64,000 nt of DNA from positions 6,961-70,960 of the forward strand of contig WSUB01000023.1 of NCBI GenBank assembly GCA_019633425.1. The letters run 5' to 3'. Origin of the DNA: Tulasnella sp. 424 (lineage: Eukaryota > Basidiomycota > Agaricomycetes > Cantharellales > Tulasnellaceae). The position numbers and the translations under genes are program-made. Below, piece by piece: positions 3,397 to 30,878 of the stretch; position 1 is the stretch's first letter; each line of letters begins with the position of its first letter. Below the pieces are notes generated by a model, which made no database searches, was not told where the DNA came from, and saw only the letters and a list, made by a program, of their open reading frames with translations.

Positions 3397-6300
3397 ATGC
3401 TGGCCCACGAGACATCTCAAGGCACGCGGCATCAAGGCCTAGACAAGGCAGTAAGTCCTCTCCACAACATGCGGGCACGGAACTATGCGCTGAAGGATGT
3501 CATTGAAGCGGGAAATTCTCGACGGAATGTCCGAGTATCGGATCGACCCAACGAGAATCAAGACTACACAAACCGAATCGCATACAAAGGGCGGGCAAAG
3601 TACCGTTATCCTTGGAACCATGATCCCAGTGGAAGAAATCGGGACATTCCTCCCTGAGAACCTGCCAAACCAACTCCTTGGAGTACAACTGGCAATTAAG
3701 AAGTTCAAATGGAATCGCGAGGATGTCGAAGCATCGGCGAAATTCTTCAAGGTATCGTTGTCTTCGTGCGGTGCCTTCTCTCTTCTGATTGCTCCCCATC
3801 AGTCCTTCGTCAACGAGGTCAGCATAATGGTGGAGCTCATGGCGGCGGGGCACCATCACCCCTACATTGTCCACTTCTGCGGTTTTGTGGAGGACATGGA
3901 GAAGGGTGACGCTTGGATAATTTTACCTTGGGAACCGAACGGAAACGTCCGAGAGTTCTTGCAGTCAGGAGAATGGGACATCCCCGAGCGTGTCTCCTTG
4001 GTCAGCGTGTTTGATGCATGCTACGCTTGAGTTATCTGAACGAAAGATCGACCTAGGTTCAGGATGTTGCAAACGGGGTGAAGTACCTACATACGAGACA
4101 ACCTCCAATCTGCCACGGCGACCTTAAGTCGGTGAGTGCGTTCAGCCGCCGTTCGGGATACTGTGCTCTTAATCGACCCTTATCCCAGCTAAACATCCTA
4201 GTCAACTCGTCCTACCAAGCAGTGATCACGGATTTTGGATCGGCTCGAATTAAACGAAACGTGGAGCCAACCAAAGACGGCAGTGTGTCCAGGCCGCCCC
4301 CCGAAGGGGACAACGGCGACATCGTTCAGGACTTGTCCTCTCCGAAAATCGACTTCAACCCGTCTACATTGGAGCTCACTTTAACGGGACCCGCGTTCTC
4401 TCTGCGGTGGACGGCCCCGGAGGTGCTGAACAACGGCGAACAAGATTTGCCCAGCGACATGTGGGCTGTTGGTTGGATATGCTGGGAGGTAAGCCAGCTA
4501 TTTGGTGAAGGGGTTTCAATTCCTTTCTTGCTCACATATGTGACTTCCCCTCAGATCTTCACTGGTAAAATCCCGTTTGAGGAACTTAATGTCCAAAGTG
4601 TCATTATATCGCGCGTTGTAAAAGGGAGATTACCAGCGATCAGGGAGGAAGCCCAACTGTCCCTCATTCTCGCGTTATGCGGTCTGATATCTGACTGTTG
4701 GAATTCAAATCCAATGGAGAGGATAGGGGCTTCCATGTTTCAGCAAAAGGTTTCCTTACTGGTGAGTGTTTTGATGGTGGACGTTACCGAGTGTTGACCC
4801 CGTATCTCAGCCATCTACAGCACCTTCTGGTTCGGCCTCTGGCGGTGCCAAGGTGAAGTCCGTCGCACTGTTACAGCAGCTTGGTGAAATATATAATCTT
4901 CAGAGTAACACCTCGATGGCTGAGTTTCACTATCAGTCTGCCATTGATGTTGCGACTCGAACGAAAGACGACAGGGGGAAAGGAGTCGCGTTACTCTGCC
5001 TGGGAGAGGTTTACCGTGTTCAGTCGAGGTATGAAGAGGCGGAGAAGGCTTTGACGAAAGCGCACGAGATCCTCTCTCGTGTGGGCGAGGACACGGGCGC
5101 TGCAAACGCGTTGTGCGGATTGGGGAGTAACCAGCTCACTCGGTCAAGGACTCGAGAGGCGGAGCAGGCTTTCATGGAAGCGCACCAGATTTACTCTCGT
5201 ATGGGCGAGGACGAGGGCGCTGCAAACGCGTCGTTCGCATTGGGGCATCTCCATCTCACTCAGTCAAGGATTTGGGAGGCGGAGCGGGCTTTCACGGAAG
5301 CGCACAAGATCTACTCTCGCATCGGCCTCGACATGGGGGACGCAAACACGCTGGTCGGTCTTGGGGAAATGTATCGTGTTCAGTCGCGGAATCGGGAGGC
5401 GGAGAAGGCTTTCACGCAAGCGCACGAGATCCACTCCCGCATCGGTGACTACCTGGGTGCTGGACATGCGTTGCAAGGCTTGGGGAATATATATCAGGCT
5501 CAGTCGAGGAATCAGGAGGCGGAGAAGGCTTTCACGGAAGCGCGCGAGATCCACTCTCGCATCGGCCAGGACCTGGGTACTGCAAACACGTTGGTCGGCC
5601 TTGGGACAATGTATCGGGCCCAGTCGAGGTATCGGGAGGCCGAGAAGGCTTTCACGGAGGCGCACGAGACCTATGCTCGCATAGGCTACGACGAGGGCGT
5701 CGCGATCGTGTTCCGGGGCTTGGGGGACATCCATCGGGCTCAGTCGAGGAACCAGGAGGCGGAGAAGGCTTACACGGAAGCGCATGAGATCCACTCTCGC
5801 ATCGGCGACGACATGGGTGCCGCACATGCGTTGCTTGGCTTGGGGAATACATATCGCGCTCAGTTGAGGGCTAGCGAGGCTGAAAAGGTTTTCAATGACG
5901 CCCACAGCATCTTCTCTCGCATTGGAGACCATCTCGGTGTCGGGGACACCATGCGCGCCCTTGCAAAGCTTTATAGTGACCAGAGCAGATTCGCCGAGTC
6001 GGAGGCTTCCTACCGCCTAGCGGTCGCTTCTTATGACTATGGTGAGGACAGTGACACCAAAGCCAAAACGCTATTGGGTTGGGCAAGAGATTATCGTACT
6101 CAGCGCAGATACCTCGAGGCTGAGGAGGCCGTCGTTTATGCCCTTGCCATTTGGATCAGCATTGACAACGAGACATTGCAAGCGGATGCTTCGTTGCTTT
6201 TGTCTCAGATCTTCAGAGCCCAGTGCCGCTACGATGAAGCGAAAGCGGCGCTCATTCAAGCTGAAGCGGCATCCGCCCAAATCGGCGATGACGCAGTACG

Positions 6301-6733
6301 CGTCGAGGTATTGGATGAGCTTGGTCATGTCCACCTCGCGCAGGGTACCTACGACGAAGCAAAAGAGTGTTATGGTCTTGCCCACGCCATATCTCTCAGT
6401 ATGGGCGACGTTCACGGCGAAGCTACCGAGTTGCTCAGCTTGGGGAGGTTGTACGTCCACCAAGGTCAACACGATAACGCGGAGGAGTGCTTCATCGAGG
6501 CTCGGGTCAGATATGCCGGGATTGACGATGGGGAGTGTCGAGCAAAGGTGTTGGACCGATTGATGGAATTATACATTGGGACAGGCAGGCTTGACACTGC
6601 GATGGCTGCTTGTTTGGAGGCTCGCGATATGTACGGGCTACTGGGCAAGCCGATGAGTGAGATGTGTGCAAGGACCTGGGAGCTCGTCCAAAATCTGGAC
6701 CAACCAGCCGGATCGGACCTCTTCCAGTCGTAA
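3397..6733 (+). CDS. Kinase-TPR fusion protein 1 (TKL-like kinase plus 15 TPRs)
   Basis: Spliced model: 3397-3450, 3509-3751, 3803-4000, 4057-4131, 4189-4488, 4555-4761, 4811-6733, giving about 999 aa. Every junction keeps phase, and all introns are GT-AG of 49-66 nt (donor at 4001 is a weak GTCAGC). The kinase domain spans residues ~25-359. It has a Gly-rich KGGQSTV loop, Lys82 in LAIKKF, Glu104 in NEVSIM, HGDLKS (Asp187), Asn192, DFG (205-207) and APE (266-268), so it should be catalytically competent. About 58 residues separate DFG and APE, roughly twice the usual, so the activation segment carries an insertion. A Ser/Gly-rich linker (PSTAPSGSASGG) joins it to fifteen 40-residue TPRs with the G8-Y11-A20-F24-A27 signature. 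No signal peptide or membrane segment is seen, so it is presumably cytosolic. The 3' exon alone would need a GTG start at 4853, which supports the fusion. Substrate and ligand are unknown. The TKL assignment is by motif only. Confidence 0.88.
3752..3802 (+). other. Stop-free 51-nt intron inside the kinase N-lobe of gene 1
   Basis: The intron has a GTATCG donor and CAG acceptor, is a multiple of three and is open in frame. Retention would add 17 residues between FFK and SFVNEV, just before helix C. The equivalents in gene 2 (12885-12935) and gene 3 (20334-20384) are also 51 nt and open. In gene 4 (27202-27250) it is 49 nt and would shift frame. Splicing restores the expected kinase alignment, so removal is the normal state. 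Confidence 0.7.
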
Positions 6734-6755
6734 CTTCCCACTGCTATGTGGTGAG

Positions 6756-6818
6756 GTAGGTATTCAGCAGTCCGTACTCCGAAGAACTCTTCAAGTGGCT
6801 GATGATTCTCGTTTCTAG
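6756..6818 (+). other. Putative 3'-UTR intron of gene 1
   Basis: A GTAGGT donor lies 22 nt after the stop codon, with a CTGAT branch-like motif and a TTTCTAG acceptor. The length is 63 nt. The same element with exactly the same length follows the other three paralogs. The short stop-to-junction distance would be expected to avoid nonsense-mediated decay. Confidence 0.55.
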
Positions 6819-7128
6819 GCGATTCCCCTAATTCTTTCCATATCTGCAGGTTCACACACTTTCGGCTTCTTCGCGTGAATGATTATGTCCTACCCCGCCT
6901 ATTGTATTGCGAACATCTCTGTGTATACACCACTGCCCATTGTCTATAGGTCACCTCTCCTCATATTCGTTCCATCCTCTTCTGGAATCTTTCGTCCACC
7001 CTACGCAACTACTTCTTCCTCGTTCATTTGCAGATCACTATCCGGGCGAACTTTGAAGAATGGAATTCCGTTTCCGAACGTTTGTAAACACGTGATCAAC
7101 TGATTGATTGTTCAGCTGCTTGCTCGCG

Positions 7129-7136
7129 TGACGTCA
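7129..7136. promoter_or_regulatory. Palindromic TGACGTCA (CRE/ATF-type) site
   Basis: A perfect 8-bp palindrome identical to the bZIP ATF/CREB consensus lies in the 3' flank of unit 1 and is conserved at 16627-16634 in unit 2. It sits near the joint with the next unit. An 8-mer can occur by chance, and conservation may simply reflect duplication. Confidence 0.3.
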
Positions 7137-8853
7137 TCGGATATATGGTTCCTGGGTGCCAAGTTTTGGTCCAGACTGACGAAGACCCATTCATTTATAT
7201 CGTTGTACTGTACAACCAATCAACATGTCGACCCATTCGCCAATCTTTTCGGTCTTTGAGCATGGGTGGTGTGAGCCGAGTGCGGGCTTACGATTATGAC
7301 ATTTTTTCTCTGGGCCGCTTAACCCAGATCGTGTCATTATCTGTGCTGATATCCAAGTATTCGTTCCTAGCGGAGAAACAACCTGTTAGATCTGCGGGTG
7401 AGTAGCAAAGGTATGTCCCATATTGAATCGATATTAGAGCAATGTTGTGGACAAACAAAACTTGTTCGCGAGAATGTCCCTGGATCCCAATCTCGACTGG
7501 TTTCCTCATCCATCCACCAGACCACCCCTCAGCCTTCCGAGTTAGCTTCTTCCTCTTGATGTCCACTCCCTCCCATCTCCACCTGATATCAACTATACTC
7601 TCGAGTTACATCGATACGCTCTATTTCAAGCTTAGGTGAAGGAAGATCGAACACACTCAACAGCACTCGACTCACCCTCCATTCAAGCATTACTCGAAGC
7701 TGGCGCTCATCGAATTTGACATCGACCGGCGCCAAAACCTCAGGGCTCCATCTCACTAAGTGGGGCGTCCCCTCGCCACAAGGTCGTGTTTAAACTCAGA
7801 GCTCGTGGCCACATATGACACCAGGAGGGTTTGGGTTCAGGAGCTCCTCGAAGGGAATTGGGAGGAGAGGGAGGTACGGCACGCTGAAACGGCGAGGTGG
7901 AACGAAGGGCAGAGAACGGATCAAGTCGAAGACCATCTCGAGGCCGCTTCATAAATATTTTGACGGCCACATCTCCCTTCAACCTCCAGCGGACGATCGA
8001 ACTTTGCGGCCGTCCAGTATTTTCCGACAAGGATGCAGTCTCGCAGCGCAACAACAAACTTGAGGCCTGACATCAAACCTACTACCAAGCTCACATATGC
8101 AGGGACGTGTTTCTCGCTCTCGGCGATTTCCCAGCAGTCCGTGGAACCTTCAGACAGTCCCTTCTTCTCTCGCAACCTACACTACGGCCGGTACTGTTCG
8201 CGTTCGGTCCTAGGAAACGGTAAGCACTATCAATCTCCTAATTCCGCCCATCACTAACCTTCGTGTCGACACACTATCGATCCAGGTTCAGCATCCGGCC
8301 ATGTCTGAAACGATTGCTGTGCTAAATCCTTGCATCTTCTTGAACATCTCCTTAACGCTTCTACCCAACAATTCATTTCACCACAGACATGACGCCCTGT
8401 CGATTACGCTGCACAACCGCGGAGGATAACTACGTATCTGCGGCGGTTGGCAGGCGTTTCGCTTATCGTAATGGGAGACGGGGGAGCGACTCGACTCAAG
8501 GAAGGTCCTTCCTAAGTGACGCAACCGGTTAGAGGCAGCGTTGGAAGTTATAGGGGATGTGACGTTGGGAGGGAGAGATAACGTTACAGCCGACGGTTCT
8601 GCGAATTCCGTCGACCGATCTCGGAGTTTCGACTGTCAGACCTCGCCACCTTCGACGGATTCCAAACGGGGTTCGGGCCAAAGTGCGGATGAAGACAACC
8701 GCCGAGAGCATTCCTCCCGCGAAATGGATCTTATCACGACCCTCATCGTTCGTCCTTCCTGCCCTCGTCATTTCGAACTTCAAGACTCAAGATCTCTCTC
8801 TCTCTCTTTCAAGACCGAAGCGGATTTCGCGAAGCTTGTCCATTACAAATACC

Positions 8854-8965
8854 GGTCGACCAAACGCCCGTGCACCTCTTTTTTTTCGATTTGGCGGGGC
8901 AATTATCACAATCCCCGGGTCGACCAAACGCCGTGCACCTCTTTTTCGATCTGGTGGCGCAATAT
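8854..8965. repeat. 64-bp tandem duplication in the unit 2 spacer
   Basis: A block beginning GGTCGACCAAACG at 8854 recurs at 8918 with small differences, including in a T-run. Units 3 and 4 carry only a single copy or part of one (for example near 18271), so the duplication is private to this unit. It helps to explain the spurious ORF that crosses it. Confidence 0.7.
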
Positions 8966-11900
8966 TGCCACTGTTCACAAGACAGTCAAGCCTGGTCGTT
9001 TAGGTCCACAGGGTGAGTTTCTACTGCTTCGCACCACGCTCAACTGGGAAAGAACCTTACGTACTTAACCTTCCGGTCCTATCGAAGAACCAGGAAGCTG
9101 GGGCCATACCGTCTGACGCATCAACGCTGCTACTGCAAGCATCCTGCACTAAGCAGCCCGTTTCGGTCCGGTTTGGGACATGCGGTGTAGAATTGCACCT
9201 GGTCAAGGAAGAAACCGGTGGAAGCATAGCGCGAACGGTGGAGGTTGGTCGTGGCTCTTGAGTTTGGGAGATATTTTGGTCGGCGCTTCGTCAAGAACAT
9301 TTCGGATACTTGGATTTCGTTGAACGTGTTGCGTCTGGTCTTACTCCCACTCGGATTGCTCGCTGTGAACACGTCCTCTCCCTATCCATCCTTCGGAGCA
9401 GCGGCCTTCTGGCCAAATCTGAATCCTCAACTTCATCAATAATAGTACGTCCGCTCATTCCACTGTAGTAAGCTTTTCGACGGCGTCGCTTTGCTTACGC
9501 CCACCCCACGTTGCGCTAGGTGGATTGGCATCTCGAAGGTATTTGGAAGCACAAGAACGAGGAGTCTTGAGAAAATATTCTTCAAGACATGTAAATTATA
9601 TAGACATTTCGAACTCCACATGCTGGGTACGTAGGGATTTTCGAGGGTTCGCAACGTCAGGGAGGCCCTGGAGTCAGTATCAGAGGGTCCGCGATTGGTT
9701 GCTAGCACAGAGGCAACCTTAGCGGATGCTCTGCGGGTGAAAAGCGACGTCATGTCCTTAACTTTGAATAGTCGGACAATGTGGTGGACAACAACGAGAA
9801 GGTCCCTGGATCCCAATTTCGACTGGTTTCCTTGTCCATCCTCCCCCAAGCTCCTTCCTCTTGATGCCATGTCCTTCCACCGTCCACTCAAGCATCCCAA
9901 GACGTTAGTGGTCATCGAATTCGACATTGACTAATACTGACCGCTTGGGTACACCCTACTTCCACAAGTGGGGCCTTATTCCGCATGACAGGTTATATGA
10001 CGTTCGACCAGCTCCGACGCGCGAGTCGGCTATGACGACCCTTCGACTGCAATCGCACCGTGATACGTGAATATATTGACATTTAATTCGTCGTGCCGAC
10101 CATTATCTGAACCTCTACCGCTGTAGTTTCCACTCTCTTGAGTCAACTACGCCAAGTGCAACGTTCACAGGGCAGTCAGGTCGGCCGCTAAGGCCCGCAG
10201 GAGGAGTTTCATTGAATCGAACCAGGCTCAACTGAGAAATAACCTCACATACTCCGGTACTATCGAAAAACCAAAAGCTGGGGCCGTGGCTTTCGATGAC
10301 ACCCCCGCAATGCTGCTGCAGTATCCCGCCCTAAGGGACCACCCGCTTCGGTCGCTTTAGGACAGCGGGGTAGAACTGTTCTGGCGGAAGAATAATCGGT
10401 GGAAGCATAAGATGATCGGAGGAGCTGGTCGTGGCTCCGGTTGGGGAGGTATTTGGTGCGCGCATCTTCAAGAACGTCGGATACATGGAGCCTTGTGGCT
10501 AGTCTTAGTCGCCTTTCCCCCGTTTACGAACAGATGTCGTCCATACACTGGTCGTATGAATGATGAATCCCTTTGGCATGAGTTTTCACACCTCATCGTC
10601 TCATCGAGCTGCAACTTTATCACTGATAGCGACCAGGATCCATCGAGGTTTGCCGCCAATCTGATCCGTGAACCGCCTTCAGTCTGTGAATATTTCCTCT
10701 CCATATCCATAAGGACTTCACTCTCTATGAGTAATACCGGTGGCTTGGATTTTCAGCCTATTTAGCCCGCTTTGTGCCATCCACAGCAGGTCCAGATGCG
10801 GTGTGCAAATCGTGATTTTGGGTCGACGTCAAGTTTCTCCGCATATTTTTGGCGCTGAGATAGGGCGTGAAGGTATTGCCGACCGAGGAACAAGTGAGGG
10901 GAACAAGCAAGACCCGTATTCGGTTCACGGTCGACTTGCAACGTGTAAATGGGCGCCGCGTTCTACTATCAGTAGAAATTTTCTAAGGAGAGGCTTGTCT
11001 CTGACCCCCTGGAATTCGACTAACCCTTCTTGTAACTAGTGCAAGTAAGTTTAAACAATACTGAGGAATGAACGTTCATGCCAAAGACATCACAGAGCGT
11101 TCGGCTAACGCGGAAGCTACACATACATACCTCACGACAGATCACTTGACTCGATTCGCGAGTTTGAGGCGGATTCGAGAATGCCTTATAATGGATACTT
11201 CTTAGGTTAATCCGTAGGTCCAGACCACGGGTTGACGGATGGAGAGACGCGACCGCGAAATGCGTGTCTTGCTGCATTTTGCTGCATCTTAGGCGATGCA
11301 CTACGACAGCTCGCTCAAGTCAATTCCTGTATCGGCTTTTGGACTTCTCACTTCGACTGGCTTCATATTATGTTCTAGCTGTACAATCGAACCGCTTCCG
11401 AGATACGGTGACAGATTGCGTCTCAGCGCCCTGGGACGTTCCAAGTGCAAGTGCAAGCTCCAGATCAAAACTAATCAATCACATCAATATCTCGCTGAAA
11501 TTAAAATGACTCACCTTAAAGTTTCATATCGTCGTTACTGGTCCTTCTGCAGGCTAGTTTCGAAGTAATTTAGGGGTAGCTTCCGGGAGTGATAGCGAGA
11601 TAGGTAGAACATCTTGACCAAATTTGACTAGTAGGGTCTCTCCTTCCGCTTGAAGTGACGGAATGTTCCAGAGACCATCGTTCAAGGAAGCTGCGGCACG
11701 ATCGTGGGCGCCCCTCACTGAGATCAGTCTTCGGGTGCCCACCTAAGGCAAAAGAAAATCCTGTCAGGGGAATCTGTCTGGCTCATGCAATTATTATTGA
11801 GGAAGATGTACGTTTTTGGTCTTTGCTGCGAAGCTTCTGCGTTGGGTATTCGAGATTAACCCTCTCGTTCTCCTTGGAAAGATGGGTGGAATGATGGTGT

Positions 11901-12530
11901 GATGCCACAACCATCATTTCGGATCACACCCTTGGTGGTCGGGAGGTCAAGCAACATTCATAGTGTGGATCAGGATATGTTTGAATGTATTAACGACGAC
12001 AGGTCTACAGAAAATGGGTTCGCTTGCATGTGGCGTGGGAGAAGCAAAGCCTAACAAAGCAGTGCCGCAACCAAACATCAGATGTCCCGTTTAGACCTAT
12101 GTACATCCTCACTTGCACAACCTTTAAGCAGAAACCCCTCGAATAGCGCTCCGAAGACGGAACACCTGGTTTTCTCTGCAGGCAACAATGTCTACTACTT
12201 TGGGAAAGTGGTTCTCTGTACAAGGTGATCACGGTCTCAACCTTGAGTTCGATGGGTCTGCAGAGAATGCCGGGACCTAATGTTCCTACAAACGCATTAG
12301 GCAGAGGTGATGATTAACGGGTAATCCAAACCATCAATTTGATAGAGGTGAGCTTCGTAAGTTACGCTGCGCTGTTGACTTTAAAAGCGGACGACTGAGC
12401 TCACGTTTCGTCTTCAAACCCCATCCAATCGGCCCCTTGCCTCTTGGTCCATTCATCACGAAGTATTTACCTTGTTAGCGGATAAAACTCTCCCCCTCCA
12501 TATCATCAATTATATCCGATTTATTCGACC

Positions 12531-15500
12531 ATGCTGGATGACCAGAGATCTCAGGGCACGCGACATCAAAGCCTAGACAGGGCAGTAAGTCCTCTCCACA
12601 ACATGCGGGCATGGAACTATGCACCGAAGGACGGATCGAAGCGGAGAACTCTCGACGGAATGTCCAATTATCGGATCGACCCAGCGAGAATCAAGACTAC
12701 ACAAACCGAATCGCATACAAAGGGCGGGCAGGGTACCGTTATCCTTGGAACCTTGATCCCCGTGGAAGAAATCGGGACTTCCCTCCCTGAAACCCTGCCA
12801 AACCAGCTCCTTCAAATACAACTAGCAATCAAGAAGTTCAAATGGAATCGCGAGGATGTCGAAGCGTCGGCGAAGTTCTTCAAGGTATCCTTGTCTTCGT
12901 GCGGCGCCTTCTCTCTTCTGATTGCTCCCCATCAGTCTTTCGTCAACGAGGTCAGCATAATGGCGGGGCTCATGGTGGCGGGGCATCATCACCCCTACAT
13001 TGTCCACTTCTGCGGTTTTGTTGAGGACATGGAGAAGGGTGACGCTTGGATCATTATACCTTGGGAAGCGAACGGAAACGTGCGAGAGTTCTTGCAGTCA
13101 GGGGAATGGGACATCCCCGAGCGTGTCTCGTTGGTGAGCGTGTCTAATGGGTGCCACCCCTGAGTTATCTGAACGAAACATCGACCTAGGTCCAAAATGT
13201 TGCCAATGGGGTGAGGTACCTACACACAAGACAACCTCCGATCTGCCACGGCGACCTTAAGTCGGTGAGTGCATTCAGCCGCCTTTCGGGATGCTATGCT
13301 CTAATCGACCCTCATTTCAGCTAAACATCCTAGTCAACTCGTCCTACCAAGCGATCATCACGGATTTTGGATCGGCCCGGATTAAACAAGACGCGCAGTC
13401 AACCAAAGGCGACAGTGTGTCCAAGGAAGGGGACAACGGCGACATCGTTCAGGACTTGTCCTCTCCGAAAATCAACTTTAACCCGTCCACATCGGAGCTC
13501 ACATTAACAGGACCCGCGTTCTCTCTGCGGTGGACAGCCCCGGAGGTGCTAAACAACGGGGAGCAAGATTTGCCCAGCGACATGTGGGCTGTTGGTTGGA
13601 TATGCTGGGAGGTAAGCCCGCTATTTGGTGAAGGGGTTTCAGTTCCGTTTTTGCTCACATATGTGACTGCCCCTCAGATCCTCACTGGTAGAATCCCCTT
13701 TGATGAACTTAATGTCCAGAGTGTCATTATATCGCGCGTTATAAAAGGGAGATTACCAGCGATCAGGAAGGAAGCCCAACTGTCCCTCATTCTTGAGTTA
13801 TGCGGCCTGATGTCTGACTGTTGGATTTCAAACCCAATGGAGAGGGTAGGGGCTTCCATGTTTCAGCGAAAGGTTTGTTTACTGGTGAGTGTTTTGATGA
13901 TGGACGTTACCGAGTGTTAACCCCGTATCTCAGCCATCTACAGCACCTTCTGGCTCAGCATCTGGCGGTGCGAAGGTGCAGTCCGTCGCACTGTTACGGG
14001 AGCTTGGTAAAATATATCACCGTCAGAGTAACGCACCGATGGCTGAGTCTCACTTTCAGTCTGCCATCGATGTGGCGACTCGAACGAAAGACGACAGGGG
14101 GAGAGGAGTCGCGTTACTCTGGCTGGGAGAGGCTTATCGTGTCCAGTCGAGATATGAAGAGGCGGAGAAGACTTTGACGGAAGCGCACGAGATCCACTCT
14201 CGTATGGGCGACGACCTGGGCGCCGCAAACGCGTTGTGCGGTCTTGGAGATGTATATCATGCTCAGTCAAAGATTCTGGAAGCGGAGCACGCTTTCATGG
14301 AAGCGCACGAGATCAACTCTCGCATTGGCAACAAAATGGGTGCTGCAAATGCGTTACACGGCTTGGGGGAAATCCATCTCGGCCAGTCAAGGGTTTGGGA
14401 GGCGGAGCGGGCTTTCGCGGAAGCGCACGAGATCCACTCTCACGTCGACCACGACTTAGGTGCTGCAATTACCTTGGGAGGTCTTGGGGAGGTATATCGT
14501 GCTCAGTCGAGGTATCGAGAGGCGGAGAAGGCTTTCGCGCAAGCGCACGAGATCCACTCTCGCATCGGCCAGGACCTGGGTACCGCAAACACGTTGGTCG
14601 GTCGTGGAGAAATGTATTGTGCCCAGTCGAGGTATCGGGAGGCGGAGAATGCTTTCACGGAAGCGCACGAGATCCACTCTCGCATCGGCAACGGCGCGGG
14701 CACCGCAAACGCGTCGCACGGTCTTGGGGAGGTGTACCACCTTCAGTCAAGATATCGGGAGGCGGAAAAGGCTTTCACGGAAGCGTACGAGATCTACTCT
14801 AGCATCGGTGACGACCGTGGTGCCGCAAACGCGTTGGACGGCTTGGGGAGTATCTATTACGCTCAGTCGAGGGGCCGGGAAGCGGAGAAGGCTTTCACGG
14901 AAGCGCACGACATCCACTCTCGCATTGGCAACGACTCGGGCGCCGCAAACGTGTTGGTCGGTCTTGGGGATGTATATTATTCTCAGTCAAGGTTTCGGGA
15001 GGCGGAGAAAGCTTCCATGGAAGGGCAAGAGATCCACTCTCGCGTCGGCGATGACGTGGGCGCCGCAAACGCGTTGCGAAGCTTGGGGGATATCTATCTG
15101 GCTCAGTCGAGGAATCAAGAGGCGGAGAAGGCTTTCACGGAAGCCCACGAGATCTACTCTCGCTTCGACTGCGACCTGGGTGCCGGGCACGCGTTGCGAG
15201 GCTTAGGGATTATCTATCAGGCTCAGTCAGGGAATCAGGAGGCGGAGAAGGCTTTCACGCAAGCGCACGAGATACACTCTCGCATCGGCCACGACCAGGG
15301 TGCCGCAAACGCGTTGCTCGGTTTGGGGCTTCTGTACCGCACTCAGATGAGGCCTAGCGAGGCTGAAAAGGCTTTCAAGGACGCCCACAGCATCTACTCT
15401 CGCATTGGAGACCACCTCAGCACCGGGAGCGCTATGCGCGCCCGCGCAATGCTTTACAGCGACCAGAGCAGATTCACCGAGTCGGAGGCTTCCTACCGCC

Positions 15501-16216: not shown

Positions 16217-16238
16217 TTTCCCACTGCTAAGTGGTGAG

Positions 16239-19981: not shown

Positions 19982-22927
19982 ATGCCGGACGACCAGATAA
20001 CTCAGGACACGCGGCATCAAAGCCTAGACAAGGCCGTAAGTTCTCTACACATGCGAGCGCGGAACTATGCACAAAGGGATGACATTGAAGCGGGAAATCC
20101 TCGACGGAATGTCCGAACGCCGACTCGACCCAGCGAGAATCAAGACCACCGAAACCGAATCGCGTACAAAGGGAGGGCAAAGTACCGTTGTTCTTGGAAC
20201 CATGATTCTTCCGGAACAGATCACGACATTCCTCCCTGAACACCTGCCGAAAAAGTTCCTTGAGATACAATTTGCAATAAAAAAGCTCAAATGGAATCGC
20301 GAGGATGTCGAAGCGTCGGCGACGTTTTTCAAGGTATCGTTATCGTTACGCGGTGCCTTCGCCCTTCTGATTGCTCCCCATCAGTCCTTCGTCAACGAAG
20401 TCAGCATAATGGCACACCTGTCCCATCCCAACATTGTTGAGTTCATCGGTTTTGTTGAGGACACGGAGAAGGGTGACGCTTGGATTATTATACCTTGGGA
20501 AGCGAACGGAAACGTCCGAGAGTTCCTGGAGTCGGGCGAATGGGACATTCCCGAGCGAGTCTCTTTGGTGAGTGCGTTTGGTGCGGGTTGTAGATGAGCT
20601 ATCTGAACGAAACATCGACCTAGGTTCAAGATGTAATCAACGGGGTGGAGTACCTACACACCAGACAACCTCCGATCTGTCACGGCGACCTTAAGTCGGT
20701 AAGTCCGCTAAGCCGCCGTTCGATATACTATGCACAAACCTACCCTCATTTCAGCTAAATATCCTAGTCAACGCGTCCTACAATGCAGTGATCACGGATT
20801 TCGGATCGGCCAGAATTAAACGAAACATGGATCCCACGAAAGATGACAGGATGTCAAAGCCGCCTCGGGCTGAAGGGGACAACGGCGATATCGTTCAAGA
20901 CTTGCCCTCTCTAAAGGTCAACTTTAATCCTTCTACATTGGAGCTCACTTTAACCGGACCTGGGTTTTCCCTGCGGTGGACGGCTCCGGAGGTGCTGAAC
21001 AACGGGGTACAAGATTTTCCGAGCGACATGTGGGCTGTAGGGTGGATATGCTGGGAGGTAAACCCCCTAATTATTGCAGGGTCGTCGGCTCCATTCTTGC
21101 TCACATATGCGGCTATGCTTCAGATCTTCACCGGTAGACTTCCGTTTGATGAACTCAATGCCCAGGGGGTCATTATATCCCACGCTATAAAAGGGAAATT
21201 CCCAGCAATCAGAGAAGCCCGACTGTCCGATATTCGCATGCTGTGCGCTCTGATGTCGGACTGTTGGATTTTAAAGCCAGTCGAGAGAATAGATCCTTCC
21301 ACGTTCCAGCGAAAGGTTCGCTTATTGGTGAGTTTTTTGATGGTAGACGTTACCGGGTGTTAATCCCATATCCCAGCCGTCTACAACACCTTCTGGCCCG
21401 ACCTCTAGCGGTGCGAAGGTGCGGTCCGCAGCACTGTTACTACAGCTTGGCGAAACATATCGCCATCAGGACAACACATCAATGGCAGTGTCTCACTATG
21501 AGTCTTCCATCGAGGTTGCTACCCGAACGAAAGACGACGGGGTGAAAGGACACGCGTTACTCGGTCTGGGAGAAGTCTACCGTGTCCAGTGGAGGTATGA
21601 AGATGCGGAGAAGGCTTACACGGAAGCGCACGAGATCCACTCTCGCATTGGTCACGACCTGGGTGCCGCAAATGCGTTGAGCGGTCTTGGGGAGATGTAT
21701 CGTGCTCAGTCGAGGTATTGGGAGGCGGAGAAGGTTTTCACGGAAGCCCACGAGATCTACACTCGCATCGGCAACGACCTCGGTGCTGCAAATGTGTTGA
21801 ACGGTCTTGGGGAAATATACAGTGCTCGGTCGAGGGATTGGGAGGCAGAGAAGGCTTTCACGGAGGCCTACGAGATTTACACTCGCATCGGCAACGACCT
21901 TGGCGCTGCAAATGCGTTGAACGATCTTGGGGAAGTATACAGTACTCGGTCGAGATATCAGGAGGCGGAGAAGGCTTTCACGGAAGCGCGCGAGATCCAC
22001 TCTCGCATCGGCCACGACCTGGGTGTCGCAACCGCGTTCAACGGCTTGGGGAACACCTATCGCCATCAGTCAAGGTTTCGGGAGGCGGAGAAGGCTTTCA
22101 ACGACGCTCACAGCATCTACTCTCGTGCTGGGGAGCACCTCGGTATTGGGAACACGTTGCGCAGCCTTGCAATGCTTTCTAGCAATCAGGGCAGATACGA
22201 AGATTCGGAGGTGTTCTCCCGCCGAGCAGCCGCTTCTTACGATCTTGCTGATGACGGTGACAGCAAAGCCGGAGCTCTATACAGCCTCGCGAAAGACTAT
22301 TATACTCGCGGCCGATACCTCGAGGCAGAGGAGACTGTGACCGAGGCCCTTGCCATTTCGATCAGCGTTGGCAACGAGGAACGTCAAGCGGGTGCTTCAC
22401 ACCTTTTGTCCATGATCCTCAAATCCCAATCTCGGTACGATGAAGCAAAGGAGGCGATAGCTCAAGCTCAAGCTGTGTATGCCCGAATGGCCAATGATGG
22501 AGGACGCGCGGCAACATTGGAGTTGCTCGGCGATATCCACTTCTTACAGGGCGCGTATGACGAGGCAGAAAGATGTTACCGCCTTGCTCAAGAGATATTC
22601 TCGAGCATAGGGGATGTTCACCGTGAGGCTACCCAGTTGCTCAATCTTGGGGTGTTGTACGGTTCCCAAGGTCGACATGACGAAGCGGGGGAGTGCTTCA
22701 CCGAGGCACGGGTCGGATATGCTAGGATCGGCGACGAGAAGGGAGAGGCAAAGGCGTTGGATGGATTGGTGGGATCGTACGCTCTGACAGGCAGGTTTGT
22801 CGATGCGAAGACTGCCTGCGAGGAAGCTCGCGCAATGTACGCGCAAATCGGGCAGCCGATGAGTGAGATGTGTGCAAAGATGTGGGAACTCCTGCAGCGC
22901 CTGGACCAATCCACTGGATCGATGTAA
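19982..22927 (+). CDS. Kinase-TPR fusion protein 3 (TKL-like kinase plus 12 TPRs)
   Basis: Spliced model: 19982-20035, 20091-20333, 20385-20567, 20624-20698, 20755-21057, 21124-21327, 21377-22927, giving about 870 aa. This is the shortest paralog. Exon 3 lacks the five residues present in genes 1 and 2, giving the more usual kinase text MAHLSHPNIVEFIGF. All catalytic motifs are present (LAIKKL is shared with gene 4). One residue is missing relative to gene 4 in the C-lobe (REARLSDIR versus REEARLSDIR). The TPR part has 12 repeats: repeat 1, a central homogenised block of five, and the six diverged C-terminal repeats. It ends TGSM, because an earlier stop than in genes 1 and 2 is used. Acceptor choice in intron 3 (CCTAG before GTTCAAGATG) is set by the need to read VQDVINGVEYLH. 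Confidence 0.88.
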
Positions 22928-22969
22928 GCGGGTCCTTTTCGGTCGTAACTACCCACTGGATTTTGATGG

Positions 22970-23032
22970 GTAGGTATTCCTGGGTCTGTCCACAGAAGCG
23001 CTCCTCGGTTGCTAACGGCTCTCGACTTCTAG
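22970..23032 (+). other. Putative 3'-UTR intron of gene 3
   Basis: The donor GTAGGT lies 42 nt after the stop, with a CTAAC branch-like motif, CTTCTAG acceptor and 63-nt length. The interior differs from genes 1 and 2, but ends and length are kept. Confidence 0.55.
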
Positions 23033-23344
23033 ACGTCTCGTGAAGGTCTCTTTCGATAATACCCCATCTAGCTCATTGTATTGCGAACGCCTCTCCTGTA
23101 TATTACTGCTTATGTCTGTAGAGCATCTGAATTCACCTGCATTTGCCTCCTTCACCCAGGCCTTTCGTAAACTAACACTGCTTCCTATCGACCTTTGCCC
23201 AACGGTCAACCCTGACGGGGTCCCGCACTCTCAAATACGATAGTTCCGCCTGATCAACGAAGCCCCAAAGGTGGCGCACACTTCACATTCTCCACCATTC
23301 GGGAGACCCTATGTTGGTGACGTACAAGTGGTAGACTGTTCCAG

Positions 23345-23690
23345 CTGTGAGTCCGGCTACCGATTCTAGTGCGCGTGAGTGATCAAGGGTATGTCACAGA
23401 CCGCCCTTACTCTTTTCATTAGTACCCCGTTGATGACCGTGTACTTGGACGCCGGCAACGCCAGCTCACCCAGGATGGTGTGGGATAGTATTTGAGCAAC
23501 TCTCCCGCTTTCTCTTCGCCAAGATTCCCCGCCCCCCCTTAGTAAGTAAGAAGACTGCCTCTCAAGTTAGCGAGCCCTGGTAGCTGTATCTGGAAGAGAT
23601 GGATTTCACGTCGAACGTGCAGCAAAAGCCTTTCGAGGTCGTTTGTCGCAGTTCGGTCTTCTCTCATATAAGTAAATCAGTCTCGTTATA
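23345..23690 (+). promoter_or_regulatory. Stranded duplicate of the EF1-beta promoter
   Basis: This segment aligns with about 31680-32010, the region directly upstream of the EF1-beta gene, including the TATAAG box (23667-23672 here, 31998-32003 there) and the sequence just beyond it. Similarity stops soon after the TATA box, and no EF1-beta exon follows. It is therefore a promoter fragment without its gene and marks the breakpoint of the unit 3/4 duplication. Whether it still fires toward unit 4 cannot be told. Confidence 0.8.
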
Positions 23691-26380
23691 TAGTGGTGCC
23701 TCGGATCTGATGGTTTAAAATCATCTTGTTGAGCTACCTTGTCAATATTTGAGAGTGCGTGGTGGTCGAGTGTGTCCTTACTTTTCTGACTTCTTTTCTC
23801 TAGGGCGCCGGGAGTGGGCTCTGGTGTCATTATAATATTAATTATCGGAGCCCAGCTGCTGATCTCGAAGTATTTTATTCTAGCACACGCAACCTTACCT
23901 TATGTTCTGCGAGGGAATTGCAACGTTGTGACGATTGAATGGATATCAGGACAATGTTGTGGACAACTCTTTGTTTTGCAAGAACGTCCCTGGATCCTAA
24001 TTTCGACTGGTTTCCTCCTTCCGATCTTCCGACTTGGCTCCTTTCTCCTTGATGGCATGCCCGATGTCCACTCCCCTCCCATCGCCAACCAAGACCAAAT
24101 GTACTCTCGAATTCCATTGACACGCTCATTTCAAGTTTAGAACGAAGATCGCACTCGCTCGACAGCGGTCTCCCTCCACTCGAAGTTGGCGTATGGAGTC
24201 TGACATCGACCAACCCCAACGCTTTAGACTACATCCCCTCTTCCCACAGAAGGGTCTTGTTCGACCTTAGCGCTGTACAGCACCAGGATGGTTTGGGTTC
24301 GGGAGCTTCTCGAACGGAATTAGGAGGAGGGGGAGGAACGGCACGCCGGCTCAACAGTGCTAGTATGGACCGGAGAACAAAGCATGGATACACTCCAGAC
24401 CATCTTGGGCCGCTTACTAAGGATTCGACATCCACCTCTCTCCCTTCAACCTCTGCCCGACGATCTCACCTGTGGCCATTCGGCAGCCTCCAACAAGGAT
24501 GCGATCTAACAGCGCAACCGCGACCTACACTGCGACTGGCATGTTCGCGTTCGATCCTAGGAAACGGTAAGCACCATCGATCTCCTATTACCATCTATCA
24601 CTTACCTTTGGGCAAATTCATTATCCATCCACGGTCAGCATCTGGCCACCTCCGGAAAATTGACAAAAATCCTTCCTTCCTCTTCGGACGTTTCCTTAAC
24701 CGCTGCACCCAACGATTCTTTCCACCATTGACGCGACGCCCCGTCAATCATGCTGGACAACCGCGAAGGATAACTGCGTATTGGCGGCGGCTGGCAAGAA
24801 TTTCGCTTGTCGTAATGGAAGACGAGGGAGGGCGTCGAGAGGGCCTTTCCTCAGCAGTGACCGGTGGCATGTAGCGTTGAAAGTCGTAGGAAATGAGACG
24901 TTGGGAGGGAGATCTCGTTGCAGAAGATGGTTTTCCGAATTCGTCCATCAATCTCGGATTTCAACGGCCAGACCTCGGCACCTTCGACCGATTCCGAGCG
25001 GAGCTCGAGGCCAAAGATCCCGATGAAGACAGCGGCCAAGGAGCACTCCTCCCGCGACATGGACCGTCTCATCACACTCCTCGTCGCTCGTCCATCCCGC
25101 CGTAGCAATACCGGACTTCGAGACTGAAGGTCTCTCTCTGTGACCGAAGCGGATGTTCGTGAAGCTTGTCTATCACAATGTGCACCTCCTTTTCGATTTG
25201 ATGGCGCAATATTGCAAACGTTCACATGACAGTCAAGCCTGGTCGTTTAGGTCCGCAGGGCGAGTTTTTCACTACTTCGCACCACGCTCAACTGGGAAGG
25301 AACCTTACGCATTGCACCTTCCAGTGCTATCCAAGACTCGGAATTAGGAAGCTGGGGCCATACCGTCCGACACATCAACGCTGCTATACCAGCATCCCGC
25401 CAACTAAGCAACCCGCTGCGGGCCGGTTTGGGACATACGATGTGGAACTCCACCTAGTTAAGGAAGAATCTGGTGGACGTATAGCGCGAACGGCGGAGAA
25501 CGTCGGGATACATGGATTTCTTTGAACGCGTTGGGTCTTGTCTTGGTCTCCCCTTTTCCCCCAATTGCAAACATATGTCGCCCAGACACTGGCCGTGTGA
25601 GTGATAAATCCCTTTAGCATTAGTATTCACACTCGTTGGCTCATCGAATTACGACTTTCTCGTTTATAGCGACCACGACGCACCGAGGTTCGCCGTCAAT
25701 CCGATTCCTTCGCAGCATTCTCGACCCGCAGGGCTCGCTGCGAACACTTCCTCTCCCATATCCATGTGGGGCAGGCGGCGCTGGTGAGTCTGGACTCCCA
25801 AATTTATCAAAAGATAGCAAGCGCTCACGCCACTGGGTAAGCTCCTCGACCCGTCACTTCGACGGCAACGCCCACCCCACGTTTCTCGAGATAGATCAGC
25901 AGAAGAGTCTAAATAACCTTTGCGAACCCACCGAAACGGTTCCAAAAAGGATAGCTTCGCTTGGGCTGCCCGCAAAGGACGCGAGGATGAACGGGCAGTG
26001 TCGAGTTTCACGGAGCGAATCAAAGGGGGTCCCGCTATTGGGGGATCCACAACTTCGAACCGGCCCTTCTTGGAAGAACCAGGAGAACGGCTCTCTCAAG
26101 TCAACTTCGGCACCGACCTTCGCATCCCTCATTCCAATCGCCTTCACATTTCATTCTAGCCCTACAGTGGAATCGCTTACTGGAAATGGGGTGCTATACC
26201 GTTATACGGCGTCTTAGAGACGTTTGCCGGTGCAATTGCAATCTCCACCTGATCAATCACCTCGATACGGTTCTGATAAGCAGTATGACTCACCTAAATA
26301 AAGTTTCTATCTCGACGATATTAGTCCTCTTGTGAGCCATTTTTGAAATAATATAGGATAGACTTTCAACTGACCCCAAA

Positions 26381-26444
26381 GCAGTCCAACTTGGACTGCA
26401 AGTGAGGACCTAAAGCCAAACTTGAGCTTTATGTCCTCACTTGC
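26381..26444. repeat. Double inverted repeat upstream of gene 4
   Basis: It has the same architecture as at 19503-19566: a 19-nt palindrome at 26381-26399, then a 12-bp stem with arms 26398-26409 and 26433-26444. Both arms of the outer stem are unchanged, while neighbouring bases differ from unit 3. Confidence 0.75.
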
Positions 26445-26849
26445 ACAACCAGTGGCATAACCTTCAAGCAGAAACCCCTTAAACGGCGCTCCAATAACAA
26501 AGCCCTTAGTCTTCGCTGCAGGAAGGTCTGGGAAAGTGGTTTTCTGTGCAAGGTGGTCATGGTATCAAGCCTCATGTTCGATGATTCTGCATAGAATTGC
26601 GGGACCCTGCAACCCTATTAGGCAGTGATGTCAATCAGGGGGCGATTCGGAAGATCAATTAGATAGATGAGAGCTTGTATGTTACGCTGTCGTCCTTTAA
26701 CACACGGACGACTGAGCTCACTTTTCGTCCTCAGACCCCATCCACTCAGCTCTCCAGCTCCCGTTCCGTTTATCACGAACTCTTTAGCCTCTACCGTCGG
26801 ATAACCCCTTCCTCCTAAATATCTTCATTCGCATCCGAGTAATCTAAGC

Positions 26850-29800
26850 ATGCCGGACGACCAGATACCTCAGGACACGCGGCATCAAAGCCTAGACAAG
26901 GCCGTAAGTTCTCTACACATGCCAGCGCAGAACTATGCACTAAGGGATGACATCGAAGCGGGAAATCCTCGACGGAATGTCCGAACGCCGACTCGACCCA
27001 GCGAGAATCAAGACCACCGAAACCGAATCGCGTACAAAGGGAGGGCAAAGTACCGTTGTTCTTGGAACCATGATTCTTCCGGAACAGATCACGACATTCC
27101 TCCCTGAACACCTGCCGAAAAAGTTCCTTGAGATACAATTTGCAATAAAAAAGCTCAAATGGAATCGCGAGGATGTCGAAGCGTCGGCGACGTTCTTCAA
27201 GGTATCGTTGTCGTCACGCGGTGCCTTCGCTCTTCTGATTGCTCCATCAGTCCTTCGTCAACGAAGTCAGCGTAATGGCACAACTTTCCCATCCCAACAT
27301 TGTTGAGTTCATCGGTTTTGTTGAAGACACGGAGAAGGGTGATGCTTGGATCATTATACCTTGGGAAGCGAACGGAAACGTCCGAGAGTTCCTGGAGTCG
27401 GGCGAATGGGACATTCCCGAGCGGGTCTCCTTGGTGAGTGCGTTTGATGCGGGCTATAGATGAGCTATCTGAACGAAACATCGACCTAGGTTCAAGATGT
27501 AATCAACGGGGTGGAGTACCTACACACCAGACAACCTCCGATCTGTCACGGCGACCTTAAGTCGGTGAGTCCGTTAAGCCGCCGTTCGATATACTGTGCC
27601 CTAACCTACCCTCATTTCAGCTAAATATCCTAGTCAACGCGTCCTACAATGCAGTGATCACGGATTTCGGATCGGCCAGAATTAAACGAAACATGGATCC
27701 GACGAAAGATGACAGAATGTCAAAGCCGCCTCCGGCTGAAGGGGACAACAGCGACATCGTTCAAGACTTGCCCTCTCTAAAAGCCAACTTTAATCCTTTT
27801 ACATTGGAGCTCACTTTAACCGGACCTGGGTTTTCCCTGCGGTGGACGGCTCCAGAGGTGCTGAACAACGGGGTACAAGATTTTCCGAGCGACATGTGGG
27901 CTGTAGGGTGGATATGCTGGGAGGTAAACACCTATTTACTGCAGGGTCGTCGGTTCCATTTTTGCTCATATGTGCGGCTACGCTCAGATCTTCACCGGTA
28001 GACTTCCGTTTGATGAACTCAATGCCCAGGGGCTCATCATATCGCACGCTATAAAAGGAAAATTCCCAGCAATCAGGGAAGAAGCCCGACTGTCCGATAT
28101 TCGCGAACTGTGCGCTCTGATGTCGGACTGTTGGATTTCAAAGCCAACAGAGAGGATAGATGCTTCCATGTTTAAGCGAAAGGTTCGCTTAATGGTGAGT
28201 GCTTTGGTATTGGACATCAACGAGTATTGACAAGCCGTGTCTGCTAGCCATTTACAACACCTTCTGCCTCGGCCTCCGGTGATGCGAAGGCGCGGTCTGC
28301 GGCACTGTTACAGGCGCTTGGCACAATGTATTACAATCAGGATGACACAGCAATGGCCGAGTCCCACTATCAAGCTGCCATGGACGTTGCGACTCGAACG
28401 AGAGACGACAGGGGGAAGGGGGCTGCGTTAAGCGGTCTGGGAGCAATCTACCGTGCTCAATCGAGGTATGAAGAGGCGGAGAAGGCTTTGACGGAAGCGC
28501 ATGAGATTCACTCTCGAATCGGCAACGACTTGGGTGCGGCAAACGCGTTAGACGGCCTGGCGAATACCTACCGCCGTCAGTCAAAGAATCTGGAGGCGGC
28601 GAAGGCTTTCATGGAAGCACACGAGATCCACTCTCGCATCGGCAACTACATGGGTCTCGCAAACGCTTTGCAAGGCTTGGGGGATACCTATCGGGCCCAG
28701 TCGAGGTATGAAGAGGCGGAGAAGGCTTTCACGGAAGCGCACGAAATCCATTCTCGCATCGGCAACGACCTGGGTGTCGCAAACGCGTTGGACGGCTTGG
28801 GAAATTCCTATCGGGCTCAGTCAAGGTACCGGGAGGCGGAGAAGCCGTTGACGGAAGCGCACGAGATTCACTCTCGCATCGGCAACGACATGAGCGCCGC
28901 AAACGCATTGGACAGTCTTGGGGAAACGTATTGTGCTCAGTCGCGGTATAAAGAGGCGGAGAAGGCTTTCATAGAAGCGCATGAGATCCACTCTCGCATC
29001 GGCAACGACCTGGGTGCCGCCAACGCGTTAGACGGCCTGGGGAGTACCTACCACCGTCAGTCAAGGAATCGGGAGGCGGAGAAGGCTTTCATGGAAGCGC
29101 ACGAGATCCACTCTCGCATCAACAACTACATGGGTGTCGCAAACGCGTTGCAAGGATTGGGGATTATCTATAGGGTCCAGTCGAGGTCTGATGAGGCGGA
29201 GAAGGCTTTCACGGAATCACACAAGATCTGTTCTCGCATCGGCAACAACCTGGGCGCCGCCAACGCGTTGGACGGCCTGGGGAATACCTACCGCCGTCGG
29301 TCAAGGAATCGGGAGGCGGAGAAGGCTTTCATGGAGGCGCACGAGATCTACTCTCGCATCAGCAACCACATGGGTGTCGCAAACGCGTTGCACAGCTTAG
29401 GGAATATTTATCGGGCTCAGTCAAGGAACCGGGAGGCGGAGAGGGCTTTCACGGAAGCACACGAGATCTACTCTCGCATCGGCAACGACCTGGGTGTCGC
29501 AAACGCGTTGAATGGCCTTGGAAATATATATCGTGCTCAGTCAAGGAATCGGGAGGCGGAGAAGGCTTTCAAGGAAGCGCACGAGATCCACTCTCGCATC
29601 GGCAGTGACATGGGTGCCGCAAATGCGTTGAACGGCCTCGGGGAGATATATGATGCTCAGTCGAGGTATGAAGAGGCGGAGAAGGCTTTCACGGAAGCCC
29701 ACGAGATTCACTCTCGCATCGGCAGCGACCTGGGTGTGGCAAACGTGTTAGACCGTCTGGGGGATACCTACCGCCACCAGTCAAGGAATCGGGAGGCGGC

Positions 29801-30878
29801 GAAGGCTTTCATGGAAGCGCACGCGATCCATTCTCGCATCGGCAATGACATGGGTGTCGCAAACGCGTTGCAAGGGTTGGGGAATATCTATTGGGCCCAG
29901 TCGAACTATGAAGAGGCGGAGAAGGCTTTCACGGAAGCGCACGAGATCCATTCTCGCATCGGCAACGACCTGGGTGTCGCAGACGCGTCGGACGGCTTGG
30001 GGAACACTTACCGCCATCAGTCAAGGTGGACGGAGGCAGAGAATGCTTTCAATGACGCTCACAGCATCTACTCTCGGGCTGGGGAGCACCTCGGTATCGG
30101 GAACACGTTACGCAGCCTTGCAATGCTGTCTAGCGACCAGGGCAGATACGACGATTCGGAGGTGTTCTACCGCAGAGCAGCCGCTTCTTACGAGCTTGCT
30201 GAGGACGGTGACAGCAAAGCCGGAGCTCTATACAGCCTCGCGAAAGAGTATTTTACTCGCGGCCGATACCTCGAGGCAGAGGAGACTGTGGCCGAGGCCT
30301 TTGCCGTTTCGATCAGCGTTGGCAACGAGGAACGTCAAGCGGATGCTTCACACCTTTTGTCCATGATCTTCAAATCCCAATCTCGGTACAATGAAGCGAA
30401 GGAGGCGATAGTTCAAGCTGAAGCTGTATATGCCCGAATGGCCAATGATGCAGGGCGCGCGGCGACATTAGAGTTGCTCGGCGAAGTCCACTTCTTACAG
30501 GGCGCGTATGACGAGGCAGAAAGATGTTACCGCCTTGCTCAAGAGATATTCTCAAGCATAGGGGATGTTCACCGTGAGGCTACCCAGTTGCTCAATCTTG
30601 GGGTGTTGTACGGTTCCCAAGGTCGGCATGACGAAGCGTTGGGGTGCCTCGCCGAGGCACGAGTCGGATATGCTGGGATTGGCGATGAGAAGGGCGAAGC
30701 AAAGGCGTTGGATGGATTGACGGAATCATACGCTCTGACAGGCAAGTTTGTCGATGCAAGGGCTGCTTGTGAGAAAGCTCGAGCAACGTACGCGAAAATT
30801 GGCCAGCCGATGAGCGAGACGTGTACAAAGATGTGGGAACTCCTGCAGCGCCTGGACCAACCCACCGGATCGATGTAA
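26850..30878 (+). CDS. Kinase-TPR fusion protein 4 (TKL-like kinase plus 21 TPRs)
   Basis: Spliced model: 26850-26903, 26959-27201, 27251-27433, 27490-27564, 27621-27923, 27988-28194, 28248-30878, giving about 1231 aa. This is the largest paralog. The kinase (355 aa) is almost identical to gene 3 and has all catalytic residues. The last exon encodes 21 TPRs, nine more than gene 3 (360 aa exactly). The central block of 14 repeats shows an alternating pattern in places. Repeats with NTYR(R/H)QS and FMEAH alternate with repeats having YRAQS and FTEAH, which suggests expansion by 80-residue pairs. The kinase-TPR intron is 53 nt here versus 49 nt in the others. The apparent ATG at 28326 is internal. 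The upstream in-frame sequence encodes the first TPR and the linker PFTTPSASASGDAK. Confidence 0.88.

Follow-up and report, generated by a model that had tools for sequence, protein, structure and literature searches.

Four paralogous genes (designated G1–G4), lying in tandem on the forward strand of a 64-kb stretch of the Tulasnella sp. 424 genome (the whole of which is called the window below), were found to join a protein kinase domain directly to an array of tetratricopeptide repeats (TPRs). We regard them, with a probability of roughly 0.55, as belonging to a large family of Tulasnella sensor kinases that are intracellular and lack a nucleotide-binding oligomerization domain (NOD), in which the TPR groove would sense variable proteins and control the kinase. 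Tulasnella is an orchid-mycorrhizal genus of the Cantharellales (Agaricomycetes). The described fungal immune and allorecognition receptors are, in the portions of the literature consulted, mostly NOD-like receptors (NLRs), and what appears to be novel in the present genes is the combination of the sensor logic of fungal repeat receptors with a kinase output and no NOD switch.

Gene structure of the kinase–TPR paralogs

As summarized in Table 1, the four genes share a common layout. Each contains five GT-AG introns of 49–66 nt, all in phase 0 and at matching positions, and each gives an open frame over its full length after splicing. The last intron constitutes the junction between the kinase and the TPR exon, with the same phase in all four genes, and each of G1–G4 thus reads as one spliced kinase–TPR gene. 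This arrangement is not attributable to chance, because four collinear spliced frames are open, the introns are conserved, and the ratio of nonsynonymous to synonymous substitution rates (dN/dS) of the kinase is 0.24–0.26. The alternative of separate, adjoining kinase and TPR genes was rejected on the predicted splice join, which is identical in the four genes, and pseudogene status was likewise rejected on the open spliced frames and the kinase dN/dS of about 0.25. The start codons are uncertain, and so are the first approximately 10 residues of each protein. An open conserved stretch with an upstream ATG was also noted at 12486–12660, and matching stretches lie 5' of the kinases of G1, G3, and G4, there in another frame; it is possibly an unrecognized 5' exon or leader.

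Kinase domain

The kinase regions matched the Pfam families PF07714 and PF00069, and all four genes encode a P-loop region, the lysine of an AIKK motif, HGDLKxxN, DFG, and APE. The residue set of active kinases (catalytic Lys, catalytic-loop Asp and Asn, DFG, and APE) is present in every gene, and the proteins are predicted to be active enzymes. A first-pass annotation of this DNA had described four kinase–repeat paralogs in a row with complete catalytic motifs; the tandem order, the catalytic motifs, and the in-phase 40-residue repeats were borne out, whereas in three of the four genes the P-loop has partly degenerated (KGGQSTV, the third glycine being replaced by Ser, as against KGGQGTV in G2). 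By sequence, the nearest solved kinases are those of plant CTR1 and animal TNNI3K, and the domain appears to be of the tyrosine kinase-like (TKL) type. The catalytic loop, HGDLKSLN, is non-RD, and 111 of 120 homologues (the best 120 of 454) likewise showed an HGD loop. The span from DFG to APE, 61–65 residues, is longer than usual. The dN/dS values given above were obtained in all six pairwise comparisons of G1–G4, and the domain is therefore under purifying selection.

Each gene model holds one kinase motif set, not the two of tandem kinase proteins. No membrane-spanning stretch was detected in the four proteins, the highest 19-residue Kyte–Doolittle mean being 1.14–1.23, and no hydrophobic N-terminus was seen in any of them. 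A plant-type receptor kinase was accordingly rejected, and the earlier wording "receptor-kinase-like" does not hold in the plant sense.

Architecture and turnover of the TPR arrays

Tandem arrays with a unit of 120 nt were detected by Tandem Repeats Finder, the unit corresponding to 40 residues, which are cited here in TPR numbering. The array is C-terminal in all four proteins, as are the superstructure-forming repeats of fungal NLRs. Its core is preceded by one divergent unit on the N-terminal side and followed by six on the C-terminal side, numbers that are constant across the four genes. Counted in full, the arrays contain 15, 18, 12, and 21 units in G1, G2, G3, and G4, in keeping with the 12–21 repeats first annotated, whereas the repeated type itself makes up only the 8, 11, 5, and 14 core units. 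These are not nearly identical, as had been claimed: the mean pairwise amino-acid identity of the core units is 0.56, 0.60, 0.63, and 0.70 in G1–G4, and 0.81 in L054, an array elsewhere in the genome, giving a range of 56–81% over the six arrays measured. The high internal conservation (HiC) criterion for fungal NLR repeats (>85% conserved over at least 100 aa) is defined on a different published measure, that of T-REKS, from the mean pairwise identity used here.

The claim that repeat number differs between copies was confirmed by the sister genes G3 and G4, whose kinases are 95.6% identical with a synonymous divergence (dS) of 0.09, yet whose cores contain 5 and 14 units. Repeat number changes fast between copies. 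In the G4 core, a strong 240-nt period and alternating repeat types suggest growth by dimers.

Fifteen further loci were read in the same genome, giving 19 arrays with core counts from 5 to 21. Exactly one unit lies 5' of the core in 17 of the 19, and exactly six units follow it in 14. Several exceptions are matters of detection: in W3 one weak C-terminal unit fell below the script threshold, a separate count finding all six; in L065 the second unit had 21 of 40 matches, one below the cut-off; and L061 ends with the fetched stretch, its first unit going undetected. In others the array itself is disturbed. L052 (C110:35900-41200) and L065 (C114:34700-39300) end within the core, where unrelated DNA takes over and the six C-terminal units are missing; both are probably truncated members. 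Frame changes occur in L055, L056, and L061 (contigs C433, C61, and C158), in L055 close to one ambiguous base and in L056 close to the array end; those in L056 and L061 may reflect an intron, an error, or a broken gene. The fixed frame around a variable core thus holds in intact members, some members being damaged.

For 163 of 226 core repeats the nearest DNA neighbour came from the same gene, as compared with about 12.6 expected at random. The C-terminal units behaved in the opposite manner, the same unit being 0.74 identical in nucleotides between genes and different units within a gene only 0.43 (14 genes). These patterns indicate that the core evolves in concert, with repeats mixing within genes.

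Selection on repeat positions

Within each array, repeats were matched into pairs by a greedy rule of least DNA difference, with every repeat used once, and changes were counted per position. The discovery set comprised 11 genes, 126 repeats, and 56 pairs, and the hold-out set 8 genes, 99 repeats, and 48 pairs; combined, 19 genes provided 225 core repeats and 104 disjoint sister pairs, with 95% intervals obtained by gene bootstrap. The comparison excluded any repeat that matched the consensus at fewer than 22 of 40 positions or contained non-ACGT letters, as well as the first and last core unit of each array, pairs of identical repeats, and pairs that were more than 40 nt apart (more than 14 nt where stated); the broken or frame-changed arrays L052, L065, L055, L056, and L061 were kept.

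Under equal rates, the ratio of nonsynonymous to synonymous change (pN/pS) at positions 5, 9, and 12 was 1.45 [1.10–1.93] in the discovery set, 1.64 [1.15–2.34] in the hold-out set, and 1.53 [1.22–1.90] in both together; with the transition bias taken from fourfold sites, the values were 1.97, 2.19, and 2.06 [1.66–2.58]. For the 58 pairs at most 14 nt apart, pN/pS at these positions was 1.88 [1.30–2.56]. Under equal rates, the fold positions gave 0.15, 0.25, and 0.19 (discovery, hold-out, together), and all positions 0.55, 0.61, and 0.57. Tested singly, with equal rates and the global synonymous rate, positions 9 (p = 2.3e-4), 5 (2.3e-3), and 38 (4.1e-3) stood out after correction for 40 positions. 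Positions 5, 9, and 12 change amino acids above the synonymous rate at the family level. In TPRs generally, variability is greatest at positions 2, 5, 9, 12, 13, 33, and 34, all on the concave face, and in the structures of HOP positions 2, 5, 6, 9, 12, and 13 touch the ligand (PMC1261162, in excerpt). The dN/dS check on repeat positions proposed in the first-pass annotation therefore revealed diversifying selection in both sets at the family level; the signal was weak in the four window genes.

The family in Tulasnella

With the kinase as query, 118 of the best 120 of 454 homologues carried both kinase and TPR Pfam domains and came from several separately annotated Tulasnella genomes; among these 120, the 107 named rows were all Tulasnella, with no named row from elsewhere, and 13 had no name. 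G1–G4 possess the HGD-type kinase and TPR_12-type repeats of this kinase–TPR family. With the G4 repeats as query (best 120 of 373), Tulasnella proteins came first, the named rows outside the genus were bacterial, and none was named as another fungus; the matches listed included four Tulasnella arrays (P0121–P0124) without kinase annotation. Among the named rows of the database matches listed, the family is thus seen only in Tulasnella. Near-consecutive locus tags in T. calospora (e.g., M407DRAFT_26777, 26788, and 26789) point to kinase–TPR clusters in that species too. No published description of a Tulasnella kinase–TPR family was found in a keyword-level literature search.

In the own-genome assembly (46.8 Mb, 448 contigs), the best 150 of 275 exon matches fell into 89 loci on 41 contigs. 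Of the 89 listed, 77 have an exon at 55% identity or more, so that the genome has at least 77 related kinase loci, and 41 of the 89 have another within 15 kb among the matches listed. Kinase sequence was present 5' of all 19 arrays read (15 fetched in addition to the 4 of the window), the loci at which the fusion was checked; for L063 and L065 the stretch covered the C-lobe only, and L065 was judged by eye. Meanwhile, 19 of the 51 array loci listed had no kinase match within 5 kb among the kinase matches listed, which may only reflect that list; four of these 19 (L064–L067) were fetched, and kinase sequence was found upstream in all four.

Relation to NOD-containing genes

For G1 the Pfam scan covered the whole protein, for G4 its first 366 residues, for G2–G4 the TPR exons, and for G2/G3 four kinase exons; in these parts no NACHT or NB-ARC match was obtained, as the first-pass annotation had stated, and the families found were of kinase and TPR type. 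Membership of the NLRs (STAND proteins) was therefore rejected, no NOD having been detected in the scanned parts. In the genome itself, NACHT gave at least 91 matches and NB-ARC two weak ones, and some NACHT matches adjoin kinase matches. None of 12 fetched NACHT or NB-ARC loci had a TPR unit of the window type at a distance of up to 1.5 kb from the match, the best candidate agreeing at 10 of 40 residues. Read by eye, L039, L043, and L048 in coding orientation showed NACHT followed by WD40 repeats, and L058 (C26:33000-36600) and L059 (C268:145800-149400), read upstream, start with a HADIKPEN-type kinase. A kinase output and a repeat sensor thus occur both with and without NACHT in the same fungus, with different kinases.

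Origin of the cluster and neighbourhood

Self-comparison of the window revealed two pairs of duplicated segments, each segment carrying one gene together with intergenic DNA (Table 1), and a similarity of 77–78% between the two pairs. The kinase dS was 0.21 for G1/G2, 0.09 for G3/G4, and 0.49–0.53 across pairs. The cluster is thus a product of segmental duplication, and these data are consistent with a single gene having given rise to two and then to four. Five intergenic open frames, the only ones scanned, had no Pfam match at E 0.01, on which basis a recognizable partner gene inside the duplicated unit was rejected. A cytochrome P450, a dihydrouridine synthase (weak match), and an amino acid permease are ordinary neighbours (Table 1). 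A secreted-looking carbohydrate-active enzyme, with two CBM35-like modules and a GH26-like mannanase part by eye, was noted at 40278–41621 (+). No second haplotype was seen in the one assembly, the DNA of 40278–41621 matching only itself.

Table 1. Coordinates of the kinase–TPR genes, their variable cores, the duplicated segments, and neighbouring genes in the window.
Feature	Position	Strand	Details
G1 kinase–TPR fusion, 985 aa	3497–6733	+	exons 3497-3751, 3803-4000, 4057-4131, 4189-4488, 4555-4761, 4811-6733; Pfam kinase and TPR matches
G2 kinase–TPR fusion, 1092 aa	12660–16216	+	exons 12660-12884, 12936-13133, 13190-13264, 13321-13611, 13678-13884, 13934-16216; true start maybe farther upstream in the same frame
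G3 kinase–TPR fusion, 856 aa	20079–22927	+	exons 20079-20333, 20385-20567, 20624-20698, 20755-21057, 21124-21327, 21377-22927
G4 kinase–TPR fusion, 1217 aa	26947–30878	+	exons 26947-27201, 27251-27433, 27490-27564, 27621-27923, 27988-28194, 28248-30878
G1 variable core, 8 units of 120 nt	4979–5938	+	1 divergent unit on the N-terminal side, 6 on the C-terminal side; coordinates checked
G2 variable core, 11 units	14102–15421	+	coordinates checked
G3 variable core, 5 units	21545–22144	+	coordinates checked
G4 variable core, 14 units	28416–30095	+	240-nt (two-unit) period also high-scoring; coordinates checked
First duplicated segment pair, 583–8457 / 9698–17975	583–17975	+	one gene and intergenic DNA each; 5.4-kb block 87%, outer block 77%
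Second duplicated segment pair, 17962–23310 / 24874–31295	17962–31295	+	one gene and intergenic DNA each; 4.2-kb block 86%, further block 85%
Cytochrome P450	35252–35803	-	
Dihydrouridine synthase, weak match	45339–45860	-	
Amino acid permease	52964–53545	-	

Proposed mechanism and alternative explanations

By sequence, a TKL-like kinase is joined directly to a TPR solenoid with a fixed N-terminal unit, a core of 5–14 units (5–21 in the family) whose copy number rises and falls, and six fixed C-terminal units. In the proposed mechanism, the core units would form a groove for binding, remodelled by unequal exchange and adjusted by selection, which may recognize variable proteins, be they from other strains, from parasites or viruses, or from the plant partner. 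Binding or release would then change how active the attached kinase is, in place of the NACHT/NB-ARC switch of NLRs. The fuller proposal, that the at least 77 related kinase loci constitute a large switch-less repertoire of Tulasnella's own, in which the reshuffled groove controls a non-RD kinase, replaces the NOD step, and serves non-self or partner recognition, is more tentative and is offered as plausible rather than probable.

Several observations weigh against the recognition reading. Positions 5, 9, and 12 were themselves picked from the discovery set before being tested on the hold-out set, and the sets taken from the literature gave lower values: 1.00 [0.79–1.24] for the variable positions and 1.13 [0.90–1.42] for the HOP contacts under equal rates (1.32 and 1.50 with transition bias). 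When local synonymous counts were used with equal rates, only positions 9, 38, and 25 had p < 0.05, uncorrected, among the 12 positions printed. A high value was also obtained for positions 36–38 (1.20 [0.98–1.42]), which do not belong to the classic contact set, and the C-terminal units are likewise fast at 5, 9, and 12 (0.93 in 7 gene pairs, rising to 1.23 when the transition bias is applied). The window genes taken alone gave 1.32, 1.74, 0.89, and 1.16 (G1–G4) from 14 repeat pairs, a weak signal, and five of the 19 genes lay below 1 (W3, L055, L056, and L063, clearly or slightly) or near it. In addition, six of the eight core repeats in G1 are closer to G2 repeats than to the rest of their array, and homogenization in the window is therefore partial. 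Finally, since five of the 15 fetched arrays are broken off or frame-changed, part of the family may be decaying.

The last point bears on a neutral origin, in which segmental duplication and unequal crossing-over expand genes and arrays that are born and decay without any role in recognition. Such a by-product would be in accord with the intergenic DNA in the duplicated blocks, the two-unit periods of the arrays, and the five damaged members (L052, L055, L056, L061, and L065), but the window kinases with their dN/dS of about 0.25, the fold positions at 0.19, and the concave positions above 1 in both discovery and hold-out sets speak otherwise, and we consider it improbable. A higher, although still low, likelihood is given to scaffold kinases with many endogenous clients, the TPR groove having diversified for different self proteins by subfunctionalization after duplication. 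TPR arrays are common client-binding scaffolds, the family is large with differing paralogs, and diversifying selection between the repeats of one array is compatible with many clients; however, 5 against 14 core units in sisters with a kinase dS of 0.09 would be unexpected for fixed client binding, and the same pattern in fungal NLRs accompanies repeat-number polymorphism among isolates (PMC4986451, in excerpt).

The proteins might also be sensors of orchid or symbiosis signals rather than immune or allorecognition receptors, which we rate as somewhat less likely than client scaffolds. The orchid-mycorrhizal habit of the genus would suit such a role, and in Tulasnella SV6 kinase and TPR-like transcripts are up near or in the orchid, albeit not linked to the kinase–TPR family (PMC11503967 and PMC11965168, in excerpt). 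Against this, neither a membrane segment nor a hydrophobic N-terminus was seen, and a plant ligand would therefore have to enter the cell.

Taken together, the reading of G1–G4 as candidate recognition proteins, NOD-less sensor kinases, is strengthened by these analyses but not proven, and their role may lie in non-self recognition, antiviral defence, or partner recognition. If the reading is true, the repeat sensor, not the NOD switch, would be the shared element of fungal recognition receptors, and orchid-mycorrhizal fungi would gain a candidate set of recognition proteins whose output is clearly enzymatic.

Comparison with known systems

TKL kinases such as plant CTR1 and animal TNNI3K provide the closest solved sequences (3ppz and 4yff), from which G1–G4 are set apart by HGD in place of HRD and by the length of the DFG–APE span. 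Plant tandem kinase proteins (e.g., Lr9 and Pm57) are reported to be kinase-based but not NLRs, a likeness to G1–G4, and to act in resistance; unlike them, G1–G4 have one kinase domain instead of two and a TPR sensor. Protease–repeat fusions without a NOD have been described in fungi; those beside gasdermin genes likewise place an enzyme directly on WD40, TPR, or ANK repeats, often with no NOD (PMC12881547, in excerpt). G1–G4 differ from them in carrying a kinase, not a protease, and in that no partner gene was recognized in the five intergenic frames scanned.

Within the same genome, the kinase–NACHT–WD40 NLRs (L058 with L048, L059 with L043) have in common with G1–G4 a kinase N-terminal to a repeat sensor and a non-RD loop; by eye, they differ in the HADIKPEN kinase without a long DFG–APE insert, in the presence of NACHT, and in WD40 repeats instead of TPRs. 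In the excerpted text of Dyrka et al. 2014 (PMC4986451), PKinase is among the N-terminal domains of NLRs, the TPR and ANK repeats of Podospora NLRs are polymorphic in number with positive selection on the concave side, and the TPR, ANK, and WD repeats of fungal NLRs follow the same evolutionary regime. Compared with these NLRs with HiC repeats (Podospora NWD, NB-ARC/TPR, and NACHT/ANK), G1–G4 have no NACHT or NB-ARC between effector and repeats in the parts scanned, and the core identity is 56–81% in six arrays; what they share is an N-terminal effector with a C-terminal array, repeats alike within a gene and varying in number between copies, and a fast-changing concave face of the TPRs.

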